Part shown: one piece after another, positions 2,798 to 17,829 of the stretch
How the letters are laid out: each line of letters starts with the position of its first letter
How positions within the stretch are numbered: the first letter of the stretch is position 1
Source of the DNA: Spirochaetota bacterium
GTDB taxonomy: Bacteria > Spirochaetota > Brachyspiria > Brachyspirales > JACRPF01
Reading direction: 5' to 3'
DNA length: 36,966 nt
NCBI GenBank assembly: GCA_038043445.1
Contig: JBBTBY010000127.1
Coordinates: forward strand, 1-36,966
Program-made: the position numbers and the translations under genes
Notes under the pieces: generated by a model
Database searches by the model: none
What the model was told of the DNA's origin: nothing
What the model saw: only the letters and a program-made list of their open reading frames with translations

Positions 2798-5377
2798 TCA
2801 CTCCGCAGGCACACCGAACACATCGAACGCCGCAATGGATGCCGTGTTGTATATCGATTCCCAATCGACACCTTTGATCACCTTAAGCTGCACGTAACGC
2901 ACCGGCGTATCGCATTGCACGGGAATATCCACCCAATCCTTCGTATTGTTCGTGAACTCGGCGATCTTGAAATATTCTTTCCCGTCCGCACTGCCGTAGA
3001 GCTCCGCCTGCGTTGTATTGCGAAACCGCGTCATATGCGTACCGGCATTATGTGTTCGCCAGCGCGTTACAAGCGCGGGCGCTGCCAATTCCACGGTGAG
3101 GAGATGCGGCCCCGCCCCCTCCTTGCTCTGCCACATGGTCCGCGTATCCCCGTCAAGCGCGTTCTCGGGGCCGAAACCGGTCGTCGAATATATGCCGCTG
3201 CTGTAATCGCTGTTCAACTGCGCCGATCCTTCCTTGAAGGTGCTCGCCGTCACCGGCCTGCCCGTGGTGAGAGAGTGTTCAAGATGCAGCCGCAATCTCT
3301 CCGGGCCGACGCTTACCGCATGGTTGTTGAACGTCAGCTGCTGATTGAGGCCGTATACATCGACACTGCCGGTGAACGTATCATCGAATTCCGCCCAAAG
3401 CGAGTAGCCGTTGCCGCCGCCGGTGGCGAATATCCCGTAGAACGTATTCGCACCCGCGGTACGGAAGCGGACGGATTCCACAGCGGGCACATCGAATTCA
3501 GTGCTCCAGAATTTCCCGTCCTGACATCCGCCTTTGCCCTGATCGATGAATTCCATGAAGCGATGCGGCGCGAAACCCGACAGATGGAATGTCGTCAGGT
3601 CCCGGCAGTCACCGAATACATAACTGATCGCATGCTCTGACAGATATGCCTGCTGTACTCTGCGCTTATCCGCCCCTGCGGGATACGCAGGTTTCGGGAA
3701 TTGTGTCATCAGTCTGTATTCCTGCGTAAGCGGTCCGATATCGATGCTGATGTTCTCAAGCACCACATTCTCCGATCCGCCGCCGACGCGTATGCCGCAG
3801 CGGTACATCGTACCCCAGAGCCCGACGATATGCGCATCATCGCATCGGGATGCACCGAGGTCTATGCCGTTGTACGCATTGGGCACTATCACATCATAGA
3901 TATATATCCCTTTGCCCGCCCCGCGCACCGCGTACGGATACGGATGAATGACGAGACCGCCGGTGCTGTTCGTTTCCCAGAGATTTCTCTCATGACAGAT
4001 ATTGACGCCGCGCAGTCCCGAACGCTCTTTCATCGTTATCGCCGCCCGTGCGTTCTCGCTGTCCTTCGTATCCGCGTCGAAGTCGATGATGAGCGAGCTT
4101 ACTTTCATGTACCACGAGCGTACGGGGGCGCCGAGATATCCCCCGCGCAGTTCAACCCCGGCGGGAATATCGATCGGCGCGTTCAGCCGTACAGTGCCCC
4201 GCGGCAGAAGAAGTGTCCCTCCGCCCGCAGAAGCCACCGCGTTCAAGGCTTTCTGCAGCGCAGCGCTTTCACCGGTCTTTCCATCGGCGGCAACGCCGTA
4301 GTCGGACGCCTGATACACGGATGCCGCTCCGCTCTTCGCCGGTGTACGCTGCACCGCGAACGCATAGCGTTTATCAGAAAGCTCTGGATAATTATCGAGA
4401 TCGAAGTAATGCGTACCGAAATACCATCCGCCCTCGATATCCGTTCGTCTGCCGCGCACCTTGCCGATGCCGCCGCCGAACCCATACCGGCTTCGGGCCG
4501 TCACCATCGCCTTCTGCTCGGAATCCTCCATCTTCACGATGACAGGATACTTCGCCTCCTCAAGATCACCGTTGTAGAACGAAAGGCCGTCGACCTTGCC
4601 CACCTGCACCCCGATGAGTTCCTTTCCCATGAATGAGCGCACCTGGGCCGCATCGGCATCGCTCATTTTTGCTTCCGGGAGTTTCGTCCAATAGTCGCTC
4701 TTTATCCTGACATTATAGCAGGTGCAGAGCTCAGTGGAACTTCGAAGGATAATACCCCGGTAGAGCGCGGTGCCGCAAATGTTCGCTACGCTCGAACCGC
4801 TGAAGCCGCTCATCATTATCCCCTGATAGCTGTTGACCAGCGTAATGTTGTGGATGTATGCCACATTACCGTCGATAGAGAATGGATATGCGACCGGTGA
4901 TGCCGGGTTCTGCTCCGGATAGTATATCGTCATATTGAAGACATTCGCATGCCCGAGCTTCGGCGGTGACAGGAGCGCCGGGCCCGACGCATTGCCTTTA
5001 TCGGCATAGGCAAGCAAAACCGTACCGGAAAGCGGATCACCCGGCTCCGGTCTTTTCCATTCACCGCAGAGCGTAACGGCAGCGGGCATTGCGATGGACT
5101 TTTCGATACGATACCGCCCCGCGGGAAGGAATACCGTTCCCCCGCCGCTGTTCGCCGCAGCCTCAAGCGCCTTTTGTATCGCGGAAGATGCATCGGTCTT
5201 GCCGGTAGCGTCCGCATTGTACGGAGCTTCGGTAGCGACGGCCGCAGCGACGACCAGTGTACTCCCGCTGAATACAGGTTTGAAATTCGCCGCCGGCAGT
5301 GACGCACATGCGATAATGCACATAAAGAAGAGCCGTGCTCCCGTGCGTCCGTTTTCCCATTTGCATGATCGTTCCAT
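2798..5377 (-). CDS. Secreted tandem beta-helix protein with C-terminal F5/8 type C (discoidin-like) domain
   Basis: About 859 residues. The start at 5377 is chosen because GGAGG (5383-5387) lies five bases upstream and the signal peptide follows at once (core LFFMCIIACASLPA). Two pectate-lyase-3-type openings are visible: YNADATGKTDASSAIQKALE near residue 55, and YGVAADGKTGESAALQKALN near residue 365. Each is followed by GGGT plus a hydrophobic rung, so the beta-helix unit is duplicated within one chain. The last roughly 140 residues (from YSTTGFGPENALDGDTRTMW) match the F5/8 type C carbohydrate-binding fold. The architecture suggests an extracellular enzyme that attaches to a complex glycan. 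It lies 164 bp downstream of the LysM/solute-binding gene. The catalytic activity is not predictable. Confidence 0.87.
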   Translation of the reverse strand: MERSCKWENGRTGARLFFMCIIACASLPAANFKPVFSGSTLVVAAAVATEAPYNADATGKTDASSAIQKALEAAANSGGGTVFLPAGRYRIEKSIAMPAAVTLCGEWKRPEPGDPLSGTVLLAYADKGNASGPALLSPPKLGHANVFNMTIYYPEQNPASPVAYPFSIDGNVAYIHNITLVNSYQGIMMSGFSGSSVANICGTALYRGIILRSSTELCTCYNVRIKSDYWTKLPEAKMSDADAAQVRSFMGKELIGVQVGKVDGLSFYNGDLEEAKYPVIVKMEDSEQKAMVTARSRYGFGGGIGKVRGRRTDIEGGWYFGTHYFDLDNYPELSDKRYAFAVQRTPAKSGAASVYQASDYGVAADGKTGESAALQKALNAVASAGGGTLLLPRGTVRLNAPIDIPAGVELRGGYLGAPVRSWYMKVSSLIIDFDADTKDSENARAAITMKERSGLRGVNICHERNLWETNSTGGLVIHPYPYAVRGAGKGIYIYDVIVPNAYNGIDLGASRCDDAHIVGLWGTMYRCGIRVGGGSENVVLENISIDIGPLTQEYRLMTQFPKPAYPAGADKRRVQQAYLSEHAISYVFGDCRDLTTFHLSGFAPHRFMEFIDQGKGGCQDGKFWSTEFDVPAVESVRFRTAGANTFYGIFATGGGNGYSLWAEFDDTFTGSVDVYGLNQQLTFNNHAVSVGPERLRLHLEHSLTTGRPVTASTFKEGSAQLNSDYSSGIYSTTGFGPENALDGDTRTMWQSKEGAGPHLLTVELAAPALVTRWRTHNAGTHMTRFRNTTQAELYGSADGKEYFKIAEFTNNTKDWVDIPVQCDTPVRYVQLKVIKGVDWESIYNTASIAAFDVFGVPAE

Positions 5378-5469
5378 TTCAACCTCCGTTTGTATGTTCA
5401 TGGTCACCCGTATGCTCAGTCAGGAAACCCGCATCCACGAGGCGTCGTATCATCGCTTCATTAGGCATT

Positions 5470-5541: not shown

Positions 5542-7524
5542 TTACAGCCCGAGCCGTTTTTTCGCAGACGCGCCGTATTCATACGCACTCGCAGGCGGTT
5601 CGCCGCCGGCGACCCGCTGCATAAGGGAGCGCTCCTGCCCGAGCTCAATGCTCCTGGTGACAGGGCGCGACACGACAGCGCGGTATTTCTGCCAATAATC
5701 GTTCGTGTGCCCGGCCCCTCCCAGAAGTATAGCTTTCGCCTTGAGCTGAGAAATGCTTTTCTCGTCCGTGAGAAGATTTCTCCGCCAGTTCTTGCTGATG
5801 ACCTTCTGATAATCCTTATATCCGTTCTCGATATAGAACGGCTGGAAATCATCCCGCATTTTCTCAAAGGAACTTGCCAGCCCGCAATAGAGGGAGTAGC
5901 ACTGCTGCCATTTGATGAACGATTCCCCGCCGATATTCAGATTGAAGCCCGATGTCACGCCGTTCACATGCGGCTTGAAATTACTGAGAACCCCGCTGCC
6001 CTCGGCGCCGTTGATATACGGCAGCCAATGTATGAACGCGTTGAACTTGATGTTATTATCCTTCGCCGCAAGGAACAGGAGGAAATCGATCGCTGCCTTC
6101 CTCCGATCGGGAGCGCTGTCCGGCGTCGGACAGGCGAATGCGAATGCCGAGAACGCATCGTCAAAAATCGGCCCCTCGACATACTGCCCGAATGCAGGAT
6201 CGTCCGGCCGCGCATAGGGCATATCCATGACACCGATCTCAAATCCATTATCCTTGGACTGCTCTTCAAGCATGCCGGCATCGAACGTGCCCGTCGGGAT
6301 GAATACCGCGCGCTGCTGCACGAAGAGGAATACGCCATCGTCCCTATTGAGCCCGGTAAAACCGGATATGCTGTTGCTCGCGTACGCAGCGGCCATCGCG
6401 AATTTCGCGCGATACGGTCCGTAGTCAAGACCTATCTTCCCGCTGCGAAATCCGATATACGATTCGACGCTGCTTATGGAGCAATCGTGATTATAATCGA
6501 TGACATCACGCGCCTTGCTTGTGATGGCGTTGAACAAAAGCCATTCCGCCTGCCCCATATGGAATTGTGAATTCGCTATCGGCACATACTGCGGCGACGT
6601 GCTGAGCAGCAGCGCACGTTCATTCGAGAGAGCGGTCAATACGCCGGCAGACCGTGCGGACAGCGGTTTTGCCGTTTCATCGGCGATGCCCGTATCGATG
6701 CGAAGCATTTTTTTCTTCGCGGCCGCATCGAGGAACCTATAGCGCTTGATCATCTCGCACACGGCAAGGAATTCGCGCCAGTCGCGCGGCGGCGTATCGC
6801 GCCCGGTCAATTCCCGGTAGAGCGTCCGGTTGTAGAACATGCGCACGAGCACCTGCGTGAGCGCAATGCTCATGAACTCCTGAAGCTCCGGTACATAACA
6901 GGCGCGCAGCCCATCCTTTACCGTTTCGCGGAGCGGCGTACGTTCGAATTCATTCCCCTTGTTATAGGGATTCGGCATGTTCGCGTATTCTGTCATTGGG
7001 ACGAAGTATCGCTGATAATAGGAGACCATGAGCGGCGCCACCACCGAATTCCCTATCTCCATGAGGTCCGCAGGCGATCCGCCGACCATCTGCGTAACGA
7101 ACCACTGACCGTACGTCTGCCCCGGTACGGCGATCTGCTTGACGCGTACGTTCGGATGAAGCTTGCGGTATTCATTCGCCATATAATCGATGCCCTCGCG
7201 CACGCCGGGCTCAAGCTGCCAATGCGCGATTGAAATGGTTATCGTCTTCTTATCTTCCGCCCCTTTCGGTATCTTTATCCTTGTCCCGGGAGCGAGTGCA
7301 AAGCGCTCCGAGATATCGGGGTAATTCTCATCGCAGATAGCACCTGCGGTCGTTCCATATGCCTCGGCAATTGCGGCGATAGTATCCCCGGGCTTTGATA
7401 CGTACACGTTGCTTTCATCAACATGGTTGTTCAAATATACAAGGAACGCCGCAGCGGCGAATGCAAGCCCGATGATGATGATCCCAAGATAATTACGGAC
7501 ACCCTGTATCAGTTTATTGAACAT
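5542..7524 (-). CDS. Membrane-anchored LysM plus family 1-type extracellular solute-binding protein
   Basis: A protein of 660 residues. The N-terminal hydrophobic stretch at residues 12-31 (GIIIIGLAFAAAAFLVY core) has no obvious cleavage site or lipobox, so it probably stays as an anchor. Residues 41-87 form a LysM domain (YVSKPGDTIAAIAEAYGTT, ending GTRIKIP), which binds peptidoglycan or chitin-type glycans. From about residue 93 the chain resembles sugar ABC solute-binding proteins (ITISIAHWQLEPGVREGIDY, then ADLMEIGNSVVAPLM). It starts at 7524 behind GGGGAGG and overlaps the TPR gene by 11 bp, which indicates translational coupling. No permease or ATPase gene lies nearby, so it may present ligand to a distant transporter or act as a receptor. 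Domain calls are firm; the role is inferred. Confidence 0.85.
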   Translation of the reverse strand: MFNKLIQGVRNYLGIIIIGLAFAAAAFLVYLNNHVDESNVYVSKPGDTIAAIAEAYGTTAGAICDENYPDISERFALAPGTRIKIPKGAEDKKTITISIAHWQLEPGVREGIDYMANEYRKLHPNVRVKQIAVPGQTYGQWFVTQMVGGSPADLMEIGNSVVAPLMVSYYQRYFVPMTEYANMPNPYNKGNEFERTPLRETVKDGLRACYVPELQEFMSIALTQVLVRMFYNRTLYRELTGRDTPPRDWREFLAVCEMIKRYRFLDAAAKKKMLRIDTGIADETAKPLSARSAGVLTALSNERALLLSTSPQYVPIANSQFHMGQAEWLLFNAITSKARDVIDYNHDCSISSVESYIGFRSGKIGLDYGPYRAKFAMAAAYASNSISGFTGLNRDDGVFLFVQQRAVFIPTGTFDAGMLEEQSKDNGFEIGVMDMPYARPDDPAFGQYVEGPIFDDAFSAFAFACPTPDSAPDRRKAAIDFLLFLAAKDNNIKFNAFIHWLPYINGAEGSGVLSNFKPHVNGVTSGFNLNIGGESFIKWQQCYSLYCGLASSFEKMRDDFQPFYIENGYKDYQKVISKNWRRNLLTDEKSISQLKAKAILLGGAGHTNDYWQKYRAVVSRPVTRSIELGQERSLMQRVAGGEPPASAYEYGASAKKRLGL

Positions 7525-10706: not shown

Positions 10707-12518
10707 TCACTTCACCGCCCGCCCGTCGTCCACCGGCGCGACCCCTTCTGGAAGCCGTACATTGAGTCCTCGGATGATGACTCCGGCATCACCGGCATCG
10801 ACCGTCGAATGGATCCGAACCGCAGCAGCGGCATTCGAGCTCATATCGTACACGAAAAGAGACTCGATGCGGACAAGGCTGCTCTGCATGAGCAGTACCG
10901 TCGGCAGCGGAAACGGATGTCCCCCCGCGTTCATGCTGAACATATTCGACACTATCGATACGCCCGAAGCATTCCGGATATCAATTCCGCCGACACGGGG
11001 ATCGGCATACGTATTCCCTGCGATGACGATATTCCTGATATCCCGATGGAGCGACATGCCCTTCACCGAACTGATCATGGATCGTATTGACGGCTGAGCA
11101 TTCGCGCCGAGGCCGTGCACGCCGCGGAACACATTGCGCTCGATGCGTATATCATGCGGCACCGGCCCCTCAGAATATTCCGATTCTTTTATGACCGCGA
11201 TCGCAAGTCCATCGATGTTCTCAAACACATTATCCGTGATGATCGCATCGCTTTTCACCAGTATACTGCGCCCGCGGTGACGCCCGAAGAAATTGCTCCG
11301 AATTATAACCTGCCCGCCGCTTGCATCGAGATTGTACACATTGTCCGCCTCACGCGTCGACCGCCCGGCGACAAGGCCTTCGACCGGTGACGCAACCGTG
11401 ATCGTGTGCAGGTACGGATGCTGCGCATCAACGGCAACAACGGTCGTTTCAGCTCGTATGCGTCCCACAGCCGGATCGAATATCTGTATGCGGTCGCCCG
11501 GATAGCAGCGGAATGTGCCCGCATTGTTCACGGTGAACCGTGTCGGCGATATGTTGCTCCACACGGTAGCTGCCCGGCAGTGAATATTGATCGAATCATC
11601 GAGCATCCCCTCAAAGTGACAGCGCTCGATGAGGAATGTCCCGCGCACACCGAAGGAATGAATTCCGTCCGCACAGGATGACATGATACGCCCGCTCCCG
11701 GGCCTGCGCATTACCGTCATGCCGCGTATCGCCACATCCTTCGTATTCGCCCATGTAGTCGTCGTTGCGGGACATGCATATATCGCAACATCACGCACGG
11801 ATATGTTCGTACAGTCCCACGCCCCGATGGCGCTCTGAACATACCACCGATAACTGTGCGCATATCGGTCGCCGGCGGCAAGCCCCGCCTTCGTCAGCGC
11901 AGCATGGTCCTTTACGGTAAACCGGAAAACCGGTGCACCCATCGCCATCACCGACTTCATACGGTGTACGATAAGATCATAGAACACCCCGTCGATCACC
12001 TTCACGCCGAATGAACTTTTGGCGTCGGCAAAGAACGGGGCATCAGGTGCAGGATACCCCTCATCCACGGCAAGATCGAACGTACCGGCTGCAGCATCGG
12101 CCGCGGAGATCGTCCCCTGCGTGAACGGCACGATGTCGTGATCGACGGCAATATCTTCTACCGCGATATTCATGCATCTGCTGAACCGAAAACCGCCGTA
12201 CGGCGGACGCGCGACGCGTATCACCGTATTCGTGCCTTTGCCGCGGAACGTGATGTTGGCGATACCGCTGAAATCGAGTGCGGCGATCTGATTCGTGTCC
12301 GGCGGCATCACCTGATAGATACCGGCGCAAAACTCGATCACCGCGCCATTGTTCGCGGCCGCAGCGGCCACTGCTTTATACACAGCAGGCGCACAGTCGG
12401 TATTCCCGTCCGGCTTCGCACCGAAAGCATCGACATGAAAAGACGCAGGGAATACGACCGCCGCTGCGAAGAGAACCGCCGCCGCTTTTCTCGCTATCCC
12501 AAGAACGTTCATCGACAT
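10707..12518 (-). CDS. Secreted right-handed beta-helix protein (pectate-lyase-like)
   Basis: About 603 residues. The frame is open back to 12617, but I start it at 12518 (or 12512) because the signal peptide MNVLGIARKAAAVLFAAAVV begins there. The 33 codons before it are a diverged copy of the start of the WbsX-like gene at 16770. FHVDAFGAKPDGNTDCAPAV opens the pectate-lyase-3 fold, and VDHDIVPFTQGTISAADAAA parallels the conserved segment in the genes at 1-817 and 880-2694. Asn-rich rungs (IIRSNFFGRHRG, IRIERNVFRGVHG) continue to the end. GGGAA just before the ATG could serve as ribosome site, while GGAG before 12617 survives from the copied leader, so both starts may be used. The substrate is unknown. 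Confidence 0.82.
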   Translation of the reverse strand: MSMNVLGIARKAAAVLFAAAVVFPASFHVDAFGAKPDGNTDCAPAVYKAVAAAAANNGAVIEFCAGIYQVMPPDTNQIAALDFSGIANITFRGKGTNTVIRVARPPYGGFRFSRCMNIAVEDIAVDHDIVPFTQGTISAADAAAGTFDLAVDEGYPAPDAPFFADAKSSFGVKVIDGVFYDLIVHRMKSVMAMGAPVFRFTVKDHAALTKAGLAAGDRYAHSYRWYVQSAIGAWDCTNISVRDVAIYACPATTTTWANTKDVAIRGMTVMRRPGSGRIMSSCADGIHSFGVRGTFLIERCHFEGMLDDSINIHCRAATVWSNISPTRFTVNNAGTFRCYPGDRIQIFDPAVGRIRAETTVVAVDAQHPYLHTITVASPVEGLVAGRSTREADNVYNLDASGGQVIIRSNFFGRHRGRSILVKSDAIITDNVFENIDGLAIAVIKESEYSEGPVPHDIRIERNVFRGVHGLGANAQPSIRSMISSVKGMSLHRDIRNIVIAGNTYADPRVGGIDIRNASGVSIVSNMFSMNAGGHPFPLPTVLLMQSSLVRIESLFVYDMSSNAAAAVRIHSTVDAGDAGVIIRGLNVRLPEGVAPVDDGRAVK

Positions 12519-12675
12519 TTCCCATTCGCCGAGACCCATGGACCGGAAAGTCCTCATCCGCGGATCGGGATGACAGGACGGACACACGAACGCTGCTGCA
12601 TCATACTTTGTGCTCATACATGCTCCAAGAGCGCTTTGGACGTATCGCAGAGCGGATCATACGATAGTATACAAT
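12519..12675 (-). pseudogene. Diverged copy of the WbsX-like gene's promoter, ribosome site and first 33 codons
   Basis: Read on the minus strand this segment aligns with 16676-16830: a TATACT -10 (12666-12671), TGCGATACGTC, TTGGAGCATGTATGAGCAC, then codons for MSTKYDAAAFVCPSCHPDP and MGLGEWE. The intact gene has MSTYDVAAFVWPSYHPDP and MGIGEWE. Similarity stops exactly at GEWE, where the beta-helix signal peptide begins. The frame has one extra codon and no stop, and conserved Trp and Tyr residues have been replaced by Cys and Arg. This looks like a truncated duplicate that now supplies the upstream region of the beta-helix gene. Confidence 0.75.
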
Positions 12676-12773
12676 TTAATCGGGAAATAATGACCGGCAT
12701 GCCGCCGATCGATATATCGTCTTTCATGGAACGTCGGGCTGTGATCTGCCCTGCAGAACGTATTCTCCGCAAC

Positions 12774-13826
12774 TTATTCCGGGATATAGTCGACATAGCC
12801 GCCAGCTTTCCCTCCGGGTCTCACTATCTGCAGATGCGATTCTTTGACGTGTCCCCGGTCATAGAGGTTATGCGCGTCGATGGAACAGGTTTGGTTCTCG
12901 ATGCAGAAATATCTTCGCGTGGTCCACACCACCACATGCGTGAGATCGGCGCTCGCACGAAGGTGCAGCACACGTCCGATGGTGCGGTAGTCGATCGCGA
13001 CACGACTCATCGGTGTCGCCCCGAAAAAAACATCATCCAATCGCAGGGTCGAGAGCGGCCGAAATTCCGTCAGGTCCCATGCCGCATTCGAGCCAACCAT
13101 GGTAAGCCTTCCCGTAGGCAGATAATTCGATGATTCCATATGGTACGGCAGCGGCACGCGGATGAAAACCTTATCAGTGTCGCCGATGATCTTCCAGAAT
13201 GGATGTACACCGAACCCGAATCCCATATCCCTTCCGTCGCGATTCTCGACCTCATAGCTTATCCGTACTCTATCTGCCAGTAATGTATATTGAACGACGA
13301 GGGTGTTTGCATAGGGGAAAGCCGGAAATCGGGGATCATTTCGATCAAGAGCATACCAGATCCTGCATGATATCGAGTTCGTGCCAAGCCGAGGCTCTTC
13401 GAATCTCCAGGCATCGTCCCAGACCAGGCCATGCAGCGCGTGTGATCGCGTTTCCCCGGAAAATGACATGGTATGCTTTTCACCCTGAAAAACATAATTG
13501 CTGTCCCTTACCCTGTTCGGTGTCGGGTAGAGAATGAGAGTGCCGACCTGTTTTTTCTTAAGATCCGATAATGCTTCCGGTCCGAGAATGAGTTCTGTGC
13601 CCCCGACGGAAAAAAAGAACATATTCCCGCCGCCCTCAGGACAGATCTTCACCTTCATACTGTTCGAGGGTCGACGCCTGTCATCCGTGCTCAGTTCAAC
13701 AATGTGCCATGCCGTAGTACCATCTTTTGTGACCGCGGAACTGAATACAACATCCGATGCGGACCCGAGAATAATGCGAGCGCCAAGGAGCAATGAAGAT
13801 GCGGTGATCAGAAAACAGTTCCTCAT
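12774..13826 (-). CDS. Secreted aldose 1-epimerase-like protein (mutarotase fold)
   Basis: A protein of 350 residues with an N-terminal signal peptide (core FLITASSLLLGARIILGSAS) and AGGAAAG before the ATG. It has the galactose-mutarotase-like fold: HALHGLVWDD gives the His133 region, GFGFGVHPFW gives His208, and YFCIENQTC gives the likely catalytic base Glu310. These are the expected His/His/Glu positions of aldose epimerases. Most aldose epimerases are cytoplasmic, so the signal peptide is notable. The gene begins 30 bp after the GH13 stop on the same strand, so the pair should be co-transcribed. Inferred role: interconverting anomers of sugars released outside the cytoplasmic membrane, or acting as a sugar-binding relative. 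Confidence 0.82.
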   Translation of the reverse strand: MRNCFLITASSLLLGARIILGSASDVVFSSAVTKDGTTAWHIVELSTDDRRRPSNSMKVKICPEGGGNMFFFSVGGTELILGPEALSDLKKKQVGTLILYPTPNRVRDSNYVFQGEKHTMSFSGETRSHALHGLVWDDAWRFEEPRLGTNSISCRIWYALDRNDPRFPAFPYANTLVVQYTLLADRVRISYEVENRDGRDMGFGFGVHPFWKIIGDTDKVFIRVPLPYHMESSNYLPTGRLTMVGSNAAWDLTEFRPLSTLRLDDVFFGATPMSRVAIDYRTIGRVLHLRASADLTHVVVWTTRRYFCIENQTCSIDAHNLYDRGHVKESHLQIVRPGGKAGGYVDYIPE

Positions 13827-13856
13827 CGGCTCACTTTCCTATTCGTCATCGGCGGA

Positions 13857-15440
13857 TTATTTCCTTTCGAGCAGGAACACCCCAAGATGTTCCGCCGGGA
13901 TTTGGGCGGAGAACGATCCGCGCGTATCCCGATCCTTTTCTTCGATACGTGTACCCGACAGCAGATCCGTCAGAACGCATTTTTCCATATCGGAAATCCC
14001 GAGCAACTCATACGGAGGGTCTATCCGGATGACATCTTCGCTCGAAGTACATTGATAATTCGGCACGACCATCACGGCTTTTTCACGATTGAACCGGGCA
14101 TACGCCTGCAGCGGATTGGGCGCACCGCTCCTTGTCGACGCAACCGCCGCGATATTGGCGTCGCGCGTGCTTTCCGGGTAATACTCGAATAGTTCGGGAT
14201 AGGTACGGCGGATGCGTATGTATCGTTTCACATCCTCGAAGAAGGCGCGGTTCGAAGGCGCGTCTCGCTGACCCCAGTCGATGGTATTAAAAAACATGCA
14301 CCCGGTCGATCGCTCGCCGGGCATAGTGATCCACAATCGCGGATTGTTCCACTCCTCCCCGATCCACCACAGGGGTATGAACGGGGCGAATATCGCCTGA
14401 TAACCGATGCGTACCCGGTTGCCCTGAACAAAGGGCTTGGGGTTATCGTGGCAAAGAAGGTTGTAGGTGTAAAAGCGGAAATGGCCGCCCAAGTGCTGCT
14501 TCACCAGTGACCCCTTGCCGATCCCGAAACCGCTTTTGATCACTTCGGTGATATTGCTCCTGATCAGGAAACTGTATCTCTCACCCCAGCGCTCCATCTG
14601 CTCCTTCAAGTGCTTTTTATCGGCCCAGTCGGGGTCCTCATCACGCCCCAGCACCCCGACCTGCTCAAAATCGAATGTTTCCCTCCGCTCATTGCCGGTT
14701 TCGGATACCAAGATGATCTTCCTTCCTTGGGCATAGAGGGCGTCGCGCACTTCCTTAAAGTAGTAGCCCGATGTATCGGGCGCAAGATCTACACGGTAGC
14801 CGTCCGCCCCGGTGGCAAGTATGAATTTCACGGCATGGCCGAGGAACCATTTTCTCAGTTCTTCGCTTTTCCAGTTCAACCGGTAGCCGCCATAGACCAT
14901 GCTCAGGCTTCCATCCGTATTTCGCGTATAGAACTCAGGATGCTCCGCCACCAGGTCTGAGTTGGTCCTGGTACCCCAGACGATGATGTCGAATATCACG
15001 CGGATATTTCTCCGATGTGCCTCGTCCACGAACTGCTTGACGACCTGATACGAACCATCGAGGGTATCGGCGCCCGTAAGCGCGCTTTCAATGGTGTGGC
15101 AGCCGAAATTCCCGTAGCCGTTGATCTTGGAACCGCGACCCCAAATAGGGTTGATCCATAGGCCGTTCACTCCCATCTCCGCATAATGGTCAAGGACCCT
15201 GGTTGCCGCAGCAAAGGTGCCTTCCGGGGTTGCGGTCTCGATGCGGAACTGGGCCATGATCAGGGTTTTAACCCAATCCGGAGAAAAGCCTTCTATTTGC
15301 ACCTGATCGTCGGACAGCAACTTGGGAATGAGCATTGCATTATCGATCTTACCGACCGGTCTTTGTGCGCTCAGTATAGTACTCAAGATCAATACCCCTG
15401 GAAAAAATAGAAGTAGAAAAGTGAAATTGTTTCTGCCCAT
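13857..15440 (-). CDS. Secreted GH13 alpha-amylase-family protein
   Basis: A protein of 527 residues with a signal peptide (core FTFLLLFFPGVLILSTILSA). GH13 conserved regions are visible. GADGYRVDLAPD contains the nucleophile Asp218, KIILVSETGN the acid/base Glu247, and NLLCHDNPKPF the stabilising Asp332 with its preceding His331. Region I is unusual: RVIFDIIVWGTRTN keeps Asp151 but lacks the His that usually follows in the DVVxNH motif, which may alter substrate fit at subsite -1. The C-terminal part is the usual small beta domain (VMVVPNYQ to GVFLLERK). GAGGGG lies four bases before the ATG. Its upstream gap carries the shared 65-bp element at 15555-15619, so it is probably activated together with the WbsX-like gene. 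Confidence 0.87.
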   Translation of the reverse strand: MGRNNFTFLLLFFPGVLILSTILSAQRPVGKIDNAMLIPKLLSDDQVQIEGFSPDWVKTLIMAQFRIETATPEGTFAAATRVLDHYAEMGVNGLWINPIWGRGSKINGYGNFGCHTIESALTGADTLDGSYQVVKQFVDEAHRRNIRVIFDIIVWGTRTNSDLVAEHPEFYTRNTDGSLSMVYGGYRLNWKSEELRKWFLGHAVKFILATGADGYRVDLAPDTSGYYFKEVRDALYAQGRKIILVSETGNERRETFDFEQVGVLGRDEDPDWADKKHLKEQMERWGERYSFLIRSNITEVIKSGFGIGKGSLVKQHLGGHFRFYTYNLLCHDNPKPFVQGNRVRIGYQAIFAPFIPLWWIGEEWNNPRLWITMPGERSTGCMFFNTIDWGQRDAPSNRAFFEDVKRYIRIRRTYPELFEYYPESTRDANIAAVASTRSGAPNPLQAYARFNREKAVMVVPNYQCTSSEDVIRIDPPYELLGISDMEKCVLTDLLSGTRIEEKDRDTRGSFSAQIPAEHLGVFLLERK

Positions 15441-15554
15441 ACGACCCCTCGGCTCATGCGAGGATGGAACATCTTTGCCGACACATCAGTGCTTCATCCC
15501 CGGAGCATCACTTTCACTGCGGATCAAGTGATACCATTTTCAGCGGCAGCAAGT

Positions 15555-15619
15555 AGTATATGAAAGGGATCAAGATCCGGTGTTGCGGATAATCGGAAAT
15601 GATTTGCGTTTTTTCGGGT
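15555..15619 (-). promoter_or_regulatory. Activator-type promoter element upstream of the GH13 gene (copy 1)
   Basis: On the minus strand this 65-bp block aligns without gaps to 16823-16887. Both copies have ACCCGAAA, CGCAAATC, TCCGA, CGCAAC and a TATACT -10 (15555-15560). The two CGCAA units start exactly 21 bp apart (15604-15608 and 15583-15587 on the plus strand). There is no good -35. Direct half-sites two helical turns apart before an isolated -10 are typical of AraC-family activation. Confidence 0.65.
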
Positions 15620-15633
15620 ACACAGCGACAGTT

Positions 15634-16770
15634 TCATACCCCACCCTCGCGCGAATCTGTAAACACATGCTTCACCGCCTCAAGATATCCATATCCATAC
15701 ATCGTACACGGCTCAAGATAGCTCGTCTCCGTCCACTCATTCCAGCTGTTCACCGTGATAAGCGGCGCCTGTTTCGGGTGCGCATCGATGTACTCCTTCG
15801 CCTTGCGGAGAGCCGCCTCAAAATTCGCCGGCGTATTGTTCTTGATGATAGAGCCCTTCACATTGAAGGTACGCGGGCTTGAGTCCCAGCCTACGCTTAC
15901 ATGCGGATAATACGGTGCTGAATATTTCTTATCGATCGCATTCCAGTCATTCACGGCATCCTTCACCGCTTCGTTATAATCCCGGTTCACATCTGTGAAA
16001 TGACAGAACTGATAATGGGTAAGAGAATCAAAGGCGAGTTTCTCAACGACGTCCTTCTGCGTACCGACATTGTCGCCCGGAACACCGGAAAGCGATCTGT
16101 CGCTGTCCTTGCGCATTGAGAGCTGCAGGTCGAGCCCCGGGAATCCCGCCTTCTTCACTTCGTCGCGGAACCAGAGAAGCGCCGACATCGCCTCATCAAT
16201 ACCGCCGAGCCCTTTCATGAACGTATTGAGATCGTAGAGCATGTATACCGGCTTTCCATCGATCTTATAGTAGGAAGGATGTGAAAAGTATTTTTCTATC
16301 GTCCTCTTGACGATGATCTCGAATTCCTGTCTGTCGACGCCGCCCTTCCATATCAGGGACTTATTTTTATGCATGAAAGCATCGTCCGCATTGCGCTTAT
16401 CCCAGCCGAGGCCAACATCATGATTGGCCCACATGAGATAGAATTTCATCTTGCTGTTGTTCTTCGCCTTGAGAAAACCGTCATTGAGACAGCCCTCAAG
16501 GAATGGCATGCCGTCATACCAATACCAATCGTAGATGAACACATTGACACCGTGATCGACCGCCGCCTCTATCTGCATTTCCATCACATACGGATCGGCC
16601 TCGTTCACATAGCCCCAGAGCGGGAAGCGCGGCTGTTCATGCCCCTCGTACTTGGGCGCGTTCTTCATCACGGTCTCCCATTCGCCGATACCCATGGGCC
16701 AGAAGATCTTCGCCCGGGGATCGGGGTGATAGGACGGCCACACGAACGCTGCTACATCATATGTGCTCAT
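15634..16770 (-). CDS. GH99-like / WbsX-family protein (cytoplasmic)
   Basis: A protein of 378 residues without a signal peptide. VAAFVWPSYHPDPRAKIFWP, GEWETV, QPRFPLWGYVNE, GVNVFIYDWYWYDGMPFLEG and the C-terminal TVNSWNEWTETSYLEP are hallmarks of the family annotated either as glycosyltransferase WbsX or as GH99-like domain. The TIM-barrel appearance and conserved NEWxE favour a hydrolase-like fold such as endo-mannosidase relatives; known members occur both in O-antigen clusters and in degradative loci. The degradative neighbours favour breakdown of an oligosaccharide here. GGAG lies seven bases before the ATG. The promoter is the activator-type element at 16823-16887. Its own first 33 codons are copied at 12519-12617. 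Confidence 0.85.
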   Translation of the reverse strand: MSTYDVAAFVWPSYHPDPRAKIFWPMGIGEWETVMKNAPKYEGHEQPRFPLWGYVNEADPYVMEMQIEAAVDHGVNVFIYDWYWYDGMPFLEGCLNDGFLKAKNNSKMKFYLMWANHDVGLGWDKRNADDAFMHKNKSLIWKGGVDRQEFEIIVKRTIEKYFSHPSYYKIDGKPVYMLYDLNTFMKGLGGIDEAMSALLWFRDEVKKAGFPGLDLQLSMRKDSDRSLSGVPGDNVGTQKDVVEKLAFDSLTHYQFCHFTDVNRDYNEAVKDAVNDWNAIDKKYSAPYYPHVSVGWDSSPRTFNVKGSIIKNNTPANFEAALRKAKEYIDAHPKQAPLITVNSWNEWTETSYLEPCTMYGYGYLEAVKHVFTDSREGGV

Positions 16771-16822
16771 ACATGCTCCACCGTTTCACTTGACGTATCG
16801 CATGATCAATGCGACCGCATAC

Positions 16823-16887
16823 AGTATATGAATGTGATACTTCATCGGCGTTGCGCATCTTCGGAGAAGATTTGCGTTATTTCGGGT
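16823..16887 (-). promoter_or_regulatory. Activator-type promoter element upstream of the WbsX-like gene (copy 2)
   Basis: This is the second copy of the 65-bp block at 15555-15619, with TATACT at 16823-16828 and CGCAA units (TTGCG on the plus strand) at 16851-16855 and 16872-16876, again 21 bp apart. The variable bases lie mainly between the inner half-site and the -10, so the conserved positions look selected. It abuts the stop codon of the monooxygenase gene. Confidence 0.65.
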
Positions 16888-17171
16888 CAGAGCGGCTTAT
16901 AGAAATGGACCACCGACGGCGCCGTACGGAGCGCATTGAGCTTCGGCACTATCGCCTTGAAATGCGCCGACGCCATATGCGCATCGACAGAGGCCTGATC
17001 CTCCCAATGTTCGATGAAGGCGAAATTCTCCGGGACCTTCACGTCCTGATGCAGGATATAATCGATACATCCCGCTTCCCTGCGCGTCGCCTCTATCATC
17101 GGCTTCACCTCATCGATGAGCGCATCGATCTTTCCGGGAAGCACCGTGAATTGCGCGACAATGACTATCAT
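16887..17171 (-). CDS. Antibiotic-biosynthesis-monooxygenase (ABM/YgiN-like) domain protein
   Basis: A protein of 94 residues; I start at 17171 because GGAGG lies five bases upstream and MIVIVAQFTVLPGKIDALID matches the usual ABM start. The longer frame adds residues that overlap the preceding gene. The dimeric alpha/beta-barrel family is shown by CIDYILHQDVKVPENFAFIE, then HWEDQASVDAHMASAHFKAI, with the conserved His residues. Relatives oxidise quinols or aromatic compounds without cofactor, and some members bind haem or sugars; the substrate here is unknown. It begins 22 bp after the stop of the 17194-17829 gene and is probably co-transcribed with it. Confidence 0.85.
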   Translation of the reverse strand: MIVIVAQFTVLPGKIDALIDEVKPMIEATRREAGCIDYILHQDVKVPENFAFIEHWEDQASVDAHMASAHFKAIVPKLNALRTAPSVVHFYKPL

Positions 17172-17193
17172 AAGAACCTCCGATGTGTATTCT

Positions 17194-17829
17194 TTACTCT
17201 GCCACATAGCCGCGAATGAGCGTCTTTACCGCCGATCTCGTATTCGTTCCCGTCGCAAGCCCGCGATACGCCGATACGATATCCCGTATGCCCGCATTCG
17301 TGCTCGTCTCAAGCACGGCCCGGTATCCTTCAGGCATCATCTCCCTCAACTGGACAGCATAGGACAAATGCCACAGCGCATCGCCGAGCCGGTACTGCTC
17401 CCTGTTCGTCGCAAGGGCAGCGAGGAGCTTCACCTCGAAACGCGAGAACAATACCGTGTAGTCGTTCGACATGCCCGGTCTTTTCGACTTCAGCATCGCT
17501 CCGGGTTCTTTCGCCATGGAGGCACACCCGGCGGCGGTGAGGTTCTCGGAAAGTATCGATATGAGCGCATGCGAATCGTTCTTTGACAATGGGAAGAACG
17601 CCGCATAGTTCATGAAATAGCCGAGTCTCAGCACCGCTTTCTCCCGATCGGAAAGGCCGAATGCGCCGGTAACGAACGTATATTGGCTTGCGAATTCATC
17701 GTCACGGAACAGGGTGGCGATATGACGCGTCTGCACATCGACAGTTTTACGCCTCGCCATCGGCACGACGAAGAATAAAATGACGATGACCGCAAAAAGA
17801 GCGAGCGGGAGCCATTTTTTAATATTCAT
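17194..17829 (-). CDS. Hypothetical protein with N-terminal membrane anchor
   Basis: About 211 residues if started at 17829, where MNIKKWLPLALFAVIVILFF gives a positively charged N-terminus and one transmembrane segment. ATGs at 17844-17847 are alternatives, since no start has a strong ribosome site. The rest is soluble and mostly helical (TRHIATLFRDDEFASQYTFV, then LWHLSYAVQLREMMPEGYRA). I do not recognise a family. By topology most of the chain should face the periplasm. It precedes the ABM-domain gene in a two-gene operon and is divergent from the 18116 gene across a dispersed repeat. Confidence 0.6.
   Translation of the reverse strand: MNIKKWLPLALFAVIVILFFVVPMARRKTVDVQTRHIATLFRDDEFASQYTFVTGAFGLSDREKAVLRLGYFMNYAAFFPLSKNDSHALISILSENLTAAGCASMAKEPGAMLKSKRPGMSNDYTVLFSRFEVKLLAALATNREQYRLGDALWHLSYAVQLREMMPEGYRAVLETSTNAGIRDIVSAYRGLATGTNTRSAVKTLIRGYVAE

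Follow-up and report, generated by a model that had tools for sequence, protein, structure and literature searches.

Capture of a neighboring gene's promoter or ribosome site through tandem duplication followed by deletion is well described, and PMC11111574 gives as examples the activation of his genes in Salmonella and experimental capture in E. coli. Long or extended signal peptides are known from autotransporters (PMC2805444). The locus compared here with these systems lies in a 36,966-nucleotide stretch of a Spirochaetota genome (contig JBBTBY010000127.1, positions 1 to 36,966; hereafter, the window), where a secreted beta-helix protein is preceded in frame by a copy of the start of a WbsX gene. 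This leader is most likely the 5' remnant of a tandemly duplicated WbsX gene whose second copy received an amylase-epimerase segment, lost its body by deletion, and thereby passed its ribosome site to the beta-helix gene. The relevant features are as follows.

10707-12617, minus: secreted right-handed beta-helix protein (PF12708/PF13229) with an apparently WbsX-derived N-terminal extension; has an ortholog in G001 (see below)
12507-12518, minus: fusion junction, ATGTCG then ATGAAC; placed from the junction sequences and the G001 start, GGGATGAAATAC
12519-12617, minus: what probably remains of WbsX copy 2, 33 codons counted from the start codon on (MSTKYDAAAFVCPSCHPDPRMRTFRSMGLGEWE), in frame with the beta-helix gene; from alignment and whole-genome search
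12618-12656, minus: 5' untranslated stretch of the probable second WbsX copy with its ribosome site GGAGCATGT, kept relative to 16771-16804
12692-12710, minus: terminator-like stem-loop in the gap from the epimerase gene to the leader, a match to the consensus only
12774-13826, minus: aldose-1-epimerase-family gene, between the two halves of the probable second WbsX unit
13857-15440, minus: alpha-amylase-family gene, likewise between the two halves
15540-15627, minus: 5' half of the probable second WbsX unit, now ahead of the amylase gene (repeat families D2 and D4)
15634-16770, minus: intact WbsX/GH99-like gene, the first copy, with a full-length match to PF14307 (Glycosyltransferase WbsX; E=2.4e-54)
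16771-16894, minus: upstream region of the intact WbsX gene, counterpart of the duplicated pieces

The leader (12617 to 12519, minus strand) is 85% identical at ungapped coding nucleotide positions to the WbsX start (16770 to 16675), and a search of the whole genome at the DNA level recovered the match at 16676-16802 with E=9.7e-29. This bears out the earlier note on this DNA, which had described the segment as a diverged copy of the WbsX start that stays open in frame into the beta-helix signal peptide. The frame runs from 12617 through GEWE to MSMNVLGIARKAAAVLFAAAVV with neither a stop codon nor an indel, and the GGAGCATGT-ATG ribosome site consists of the same letters in the leader and in intact WbsX. 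The same search found just these two copies in all and no third one, so there are no additional leaders of the kind that the note had suggested looking for. Upstream of the coding part, the similarity is solid only as far as about position 12656, i.e., for some 40 nt. The note had extended the duplication to a “-10” region, but the similarity of 12657-12675 is not significant when this stretch is taken alone (p=0.17 against shuffles, with 25% of random window segments scoring as well), and no sigma-70-like consensus promoter was found in the duplicated part. The leader holds about 33 of the 378 WbsX codons, and PF14307 is not matched by the fused protein; in the entire genome, intact WbsX alone has a match to this domain. 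The best-kept upstream word, TGCGATACGTCMA, has two exact copies in the genome, in the leader and at WbsX, and is missing before the amylase gene. A wider family of leaders or operators was considered and rejected, given the two leader copies, the two exact occurrences of this word, and the lack of any Rfam match in the window.

A search of positions 12300-17300 for repeats returned, besides the leader/WbsX pair, two in-register repeats (D2 and D4) with a spacing of 1268. The stretch from 15627 to 15540, right behind the WbsX stop codon, is a copy of 16894-16808 (minus strand), with 76% identity and an alignment score of 79 to 85 against a shuffled maximum of 40. The earlier note had not mentioned this half-copy, which is central to reading the history of the duplication. 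As at the junction of a tandem duplication, the sequence that precedes WbsX thus recurs directly after its stop codon. The copied stretch begins where the gene preceding WbsX ends, and its spacing equals the length of one WbsX unit (intergenic region plus WbsX, ~1.27 kb). The leader supplies the remainder of the unit, from ~16804 on, where the half-copy stops. Past this split point, the similarity is nonsignificant on the leader side, as noted above, and borderline on the amylase side (p=0.025 to 0.07).

The nearest relative compared, a Spirochaetes groundwater MAG of the same family (G001; JACRPF010000020.1), carries WbsX (L044, 9630-10757), followed after a 17-nt gap by the orthologous beta-helix gene, which starts at 10775. 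The WbsX proteins of the two genomes are 82% identical, and the beta-helix proteins are 66% identical from residue 45 onward. The G001 ortholog has a short, normal signal peptide without a leader or extension. From this one comparison, with a single outgroup genome that has the WbsX-beta-helix pair, WbsX was probably the original upstream neighbor of the beta-helix gene. The upstream region of G001 WbsX shows no significant similarity to either window copy, and a beta-helix alignment scan of genome contigs matched the G001 record alone. The plasmid relatives of WbsX all fell below 60% identity and were uninformative. A search of 393 genomes of the phylum found no other leader-beta-helix fusion and thus gave no support to the possibility raised in the earlier note that the leader is a normal domain fused to such genes in many genomes.

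The beta-helix protein has more than 20 matches in this genome, and most of the relatives searched have none. The window itself encodes several paralogs (287-2871 and 10707-12617, minus strand) that are 30 to 40% identical. Two other open reading frames for secreted beta-helix proteins (880-2871 and 2798-5407, minus strand) also have open in-frame stretches before their likely signal-peptide starts; an open frame ahead of a signal peptide is therefore not unusual in the window. Also in the window, 5542-7524 (minus strand) encodes a protein in which a LysM domain is joined to an extracellular solute-binding domain, a pairing that appears to be uncommon.

In the window, the intact WbsX gene lies 3 kb from the beta-helix gene, with the amylase-family and epimerase-family genes intervening. 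In G001, the former has only a distant partial relative at another place (28% identity, residues 49 to 259), and the closest relative of the latter (33%) is on a different contig. The G+C content shows no clear break across the amylase-epimerase segment. An 8-nt repeat, TGATCCGC, occurs near both ends of this segment (15519-15526 and 12652-12659, minus strand); we do not press its interpretation as a target duplication, as the word occurs elsewhere in the window too and its presence could be due to chance.

These observations suggest the following history. In the ancestor, WbsX would have immediately preceded the beta-helix gene, an arrangement that G001 has today. In the lineage of the window, the ~1.27-kb unit would have been duplicated in tandem, after which the amylase-epimerase segment would have come into the upstream region of copy 2 and split it. 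A deletion would then have removed the body of copy 2, between about codon 33 and the start codon of the beta-helix gene, and with it the latter gene's own Shine-Dalgarno sequence, leaving the WbsX Shine-Dalgarno sequence, start codon, and 33 codons to precede the gene in frame. Given that the ancestral neighbor of the beta-helix gene appears to be WbsX, this local route, in which the whole WbsX unit was first duplicated in tandem and a deletion came afterward, is the likely form of the recombination by which, as the earlier note had proposed in general terms, the upstream region was captured.

The junction gives some indication of how the deletion may have occurred. After GEWET, both WbsX genes continue with GTGATGAAG, the G001 beta-helix gene starts with GGGATGAAA, and TCGATGAAC is found at the window junction. 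The second ATG of the junction (12512) is presumed to be the original beta-helix start; the two codons ahead of it, ATG TCG, have no match to WbsX. The hexamer GATGAA at the junction is also found at WbsX codons 34 to 36, and recombination between the latter and the beta-helix start possibly produced the deletion. A GATGAA-GATGAA deletion would yield an in-frame fusion, although a homology as short as 5 to 6 nt may have arisen by chance.

The leader lies close to the intact neighbor gene in sequence and evolves under relaxed constraint, as looked for in the remnant of a tandem duplicate. With G001 as the outgroup, the leader-specific changes at codon positions 1, 2, and 3 number 5, 7, and 3, and the WbsX-specific changes number 0, 0, and 2 (15 versus 2 overall; p=0.002). 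The differences between the window and G001 WbsX genes are distributed as 2, 1, and 13, a pattern that contrasts with that of the leader (5/7/3 versus 2/1/13; Fisher p=0.001). Three residues of the leader frame at positions where all three WbsX proteins compared agree, W12, Y15, and W25, have become C, C, and R. Judged by these patterns, the leader peptide drifts as if neutral and does not appear to be kept for its amino-acid sequence. At third positions, the leader differs from window WbsX at 6 sites and from G001 WbsX at 14, and either copy differs from G001 at 13 to 14; the copy therefore arose after the split from G001, although the apparent age of the leader and WbsX could have been lowered by gene conversion between the copies. 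The whole-codon indel that the note had pointed out is real, and the longer form is common to the leader and the two outgroup WbsX proteins (G001 and G040); accordingly, a single codon was lost by intact WbsX rather than gained by the leader.

The calculated Shine-Dalgarno energy is -8.9 kcal/mol at the G001 beta-helix start, -5.6 kcal/mol before 12617, and -4.2 kcal/mol before the internal ATG at 12512, where the remaining Shine-Dalgarno sequence is merely GGGA, derived from the GEWE codons. Initiation at 12617 is favored by this difference, and the beta-helix protein is probably translated from there, with a drifting, nonfunctional N-terminal extension of 35 residues before the signal peptide, whose hydrophobic core lies at residues 46 to 56 of the fused frame. 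The weaker internal ATG may serve as an alternative start. That the ribosome site is kept and about 33 to 36 extra residues are translated is plausible. The stem at 12692-12710 (one such terminator-like stem-loop was found versus 0.3 expected by chance) hints at a separate transcript, although no consensus promoter was found.

A single tandem duplication is the simplest account of the two pieces, but the upstream region may instead have been copied on two occasions. The WbsX promoter and start would then have been copied separately before the amylase gene and before the beta-helix gene, placing three units under one regulator. In favor of this, both pieces do come from the WbsX upstream region, the pre-amylase sequence has borderline similarity to WbsX past the split point, and a terminator-like stem lies ahead of the leader. 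However, the pieces are essentially complementary, the pre-amylase one begins immediately after the stop codon of WbsX, and an alignment of the two is not significant (p=0.36); together with the absence of an exact TGCGATACGTCMA before the amylase gene, this makes separate copying unlikely. Horizontal transfer or an assembly error as the source of an unrelated WbsX start in front of the beta-helix gene is far less credible still. The genome is a draft assembly of 178 contigs, but a copy that is ~15% diverged is neither a duplicated read nor a misjoin, of all the WbsX sequences found, the local one is nearest to the leader, and the genome has one member of the WbsX family.

The remaining alternative accepts the copy and assigns it a role, namely, that of a translational leader or a translated N-terminal extension with a function under selection, for example, as an extended n-region of the signal peptide. 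The earlier note had also entertained a regulatory or translational leader. The frame without stop or indel, a Shine-Dalgarno sequence and ATG the same as those of WbsX, and the long signal sequences of autotransporters (PMC2805444) would all be in keeping with such a role. The open frame, however, is weak evidence for translation: in simulations, 15 random substitutions left it open in 49% of cases. The amino-acid evolution is neutral-like, with no codon-position bias and the conserved W, Y, and W hit, and the G001 ortholog manages without an extension. At the peptide level, the proposal thus finds no support, and selection on the leader seems quite improbable. It is equally doubtful that the 33 codons are translated and maintained in a working role, as a translational leader or an extended signal peptide by which the beta-helix protein's expression or export is set; if they were, the N terminus of a cytoplasmic enzyme would have been turned into a secretion leader.

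We consider the locus, with the leader most likely being the remnant of a second WbsX copy, to be a probable promoter/ribosome-site capture of the known type, a well-preserved case of ordinary gene remodeling and not a new regulatory leader. It would represent a natural record of a duplication, a gene insertion, and a deletion through which a gene swapped its own ribosome site for that of its neighbor. It also carries a warning for annotation, as the first 35 residues of the beta-helix protein would not be a domain but a remnant of foreign origin. Autotransporters with extended signal peptides (PMC2805444) would resemble it in that a Sec signal peptide is preceded by a long N-terminal stretch, provided that translation begins at 12617, but the origin of this stretch in a WbsX fragment and its neutral drift argue against a functional extension here. 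A truncated tandem duplicate, i.e., a pseudogene remnant, has in common with it a second copy reduced to the 5' end and relaxed codon evolution, whereas here the remnant is fused in frame with the next gene and its initiation signals are probably still used. In the promoter captures covered in PMC11111574, too, a gene comes under the 5' region of its neighbor by duplication and deletion; the present case differs in being a natural and old event, in which 33 codons of the donor were apparently carried in frame along with its ribosome site and a further segment came to lie inside the duplicated copy.
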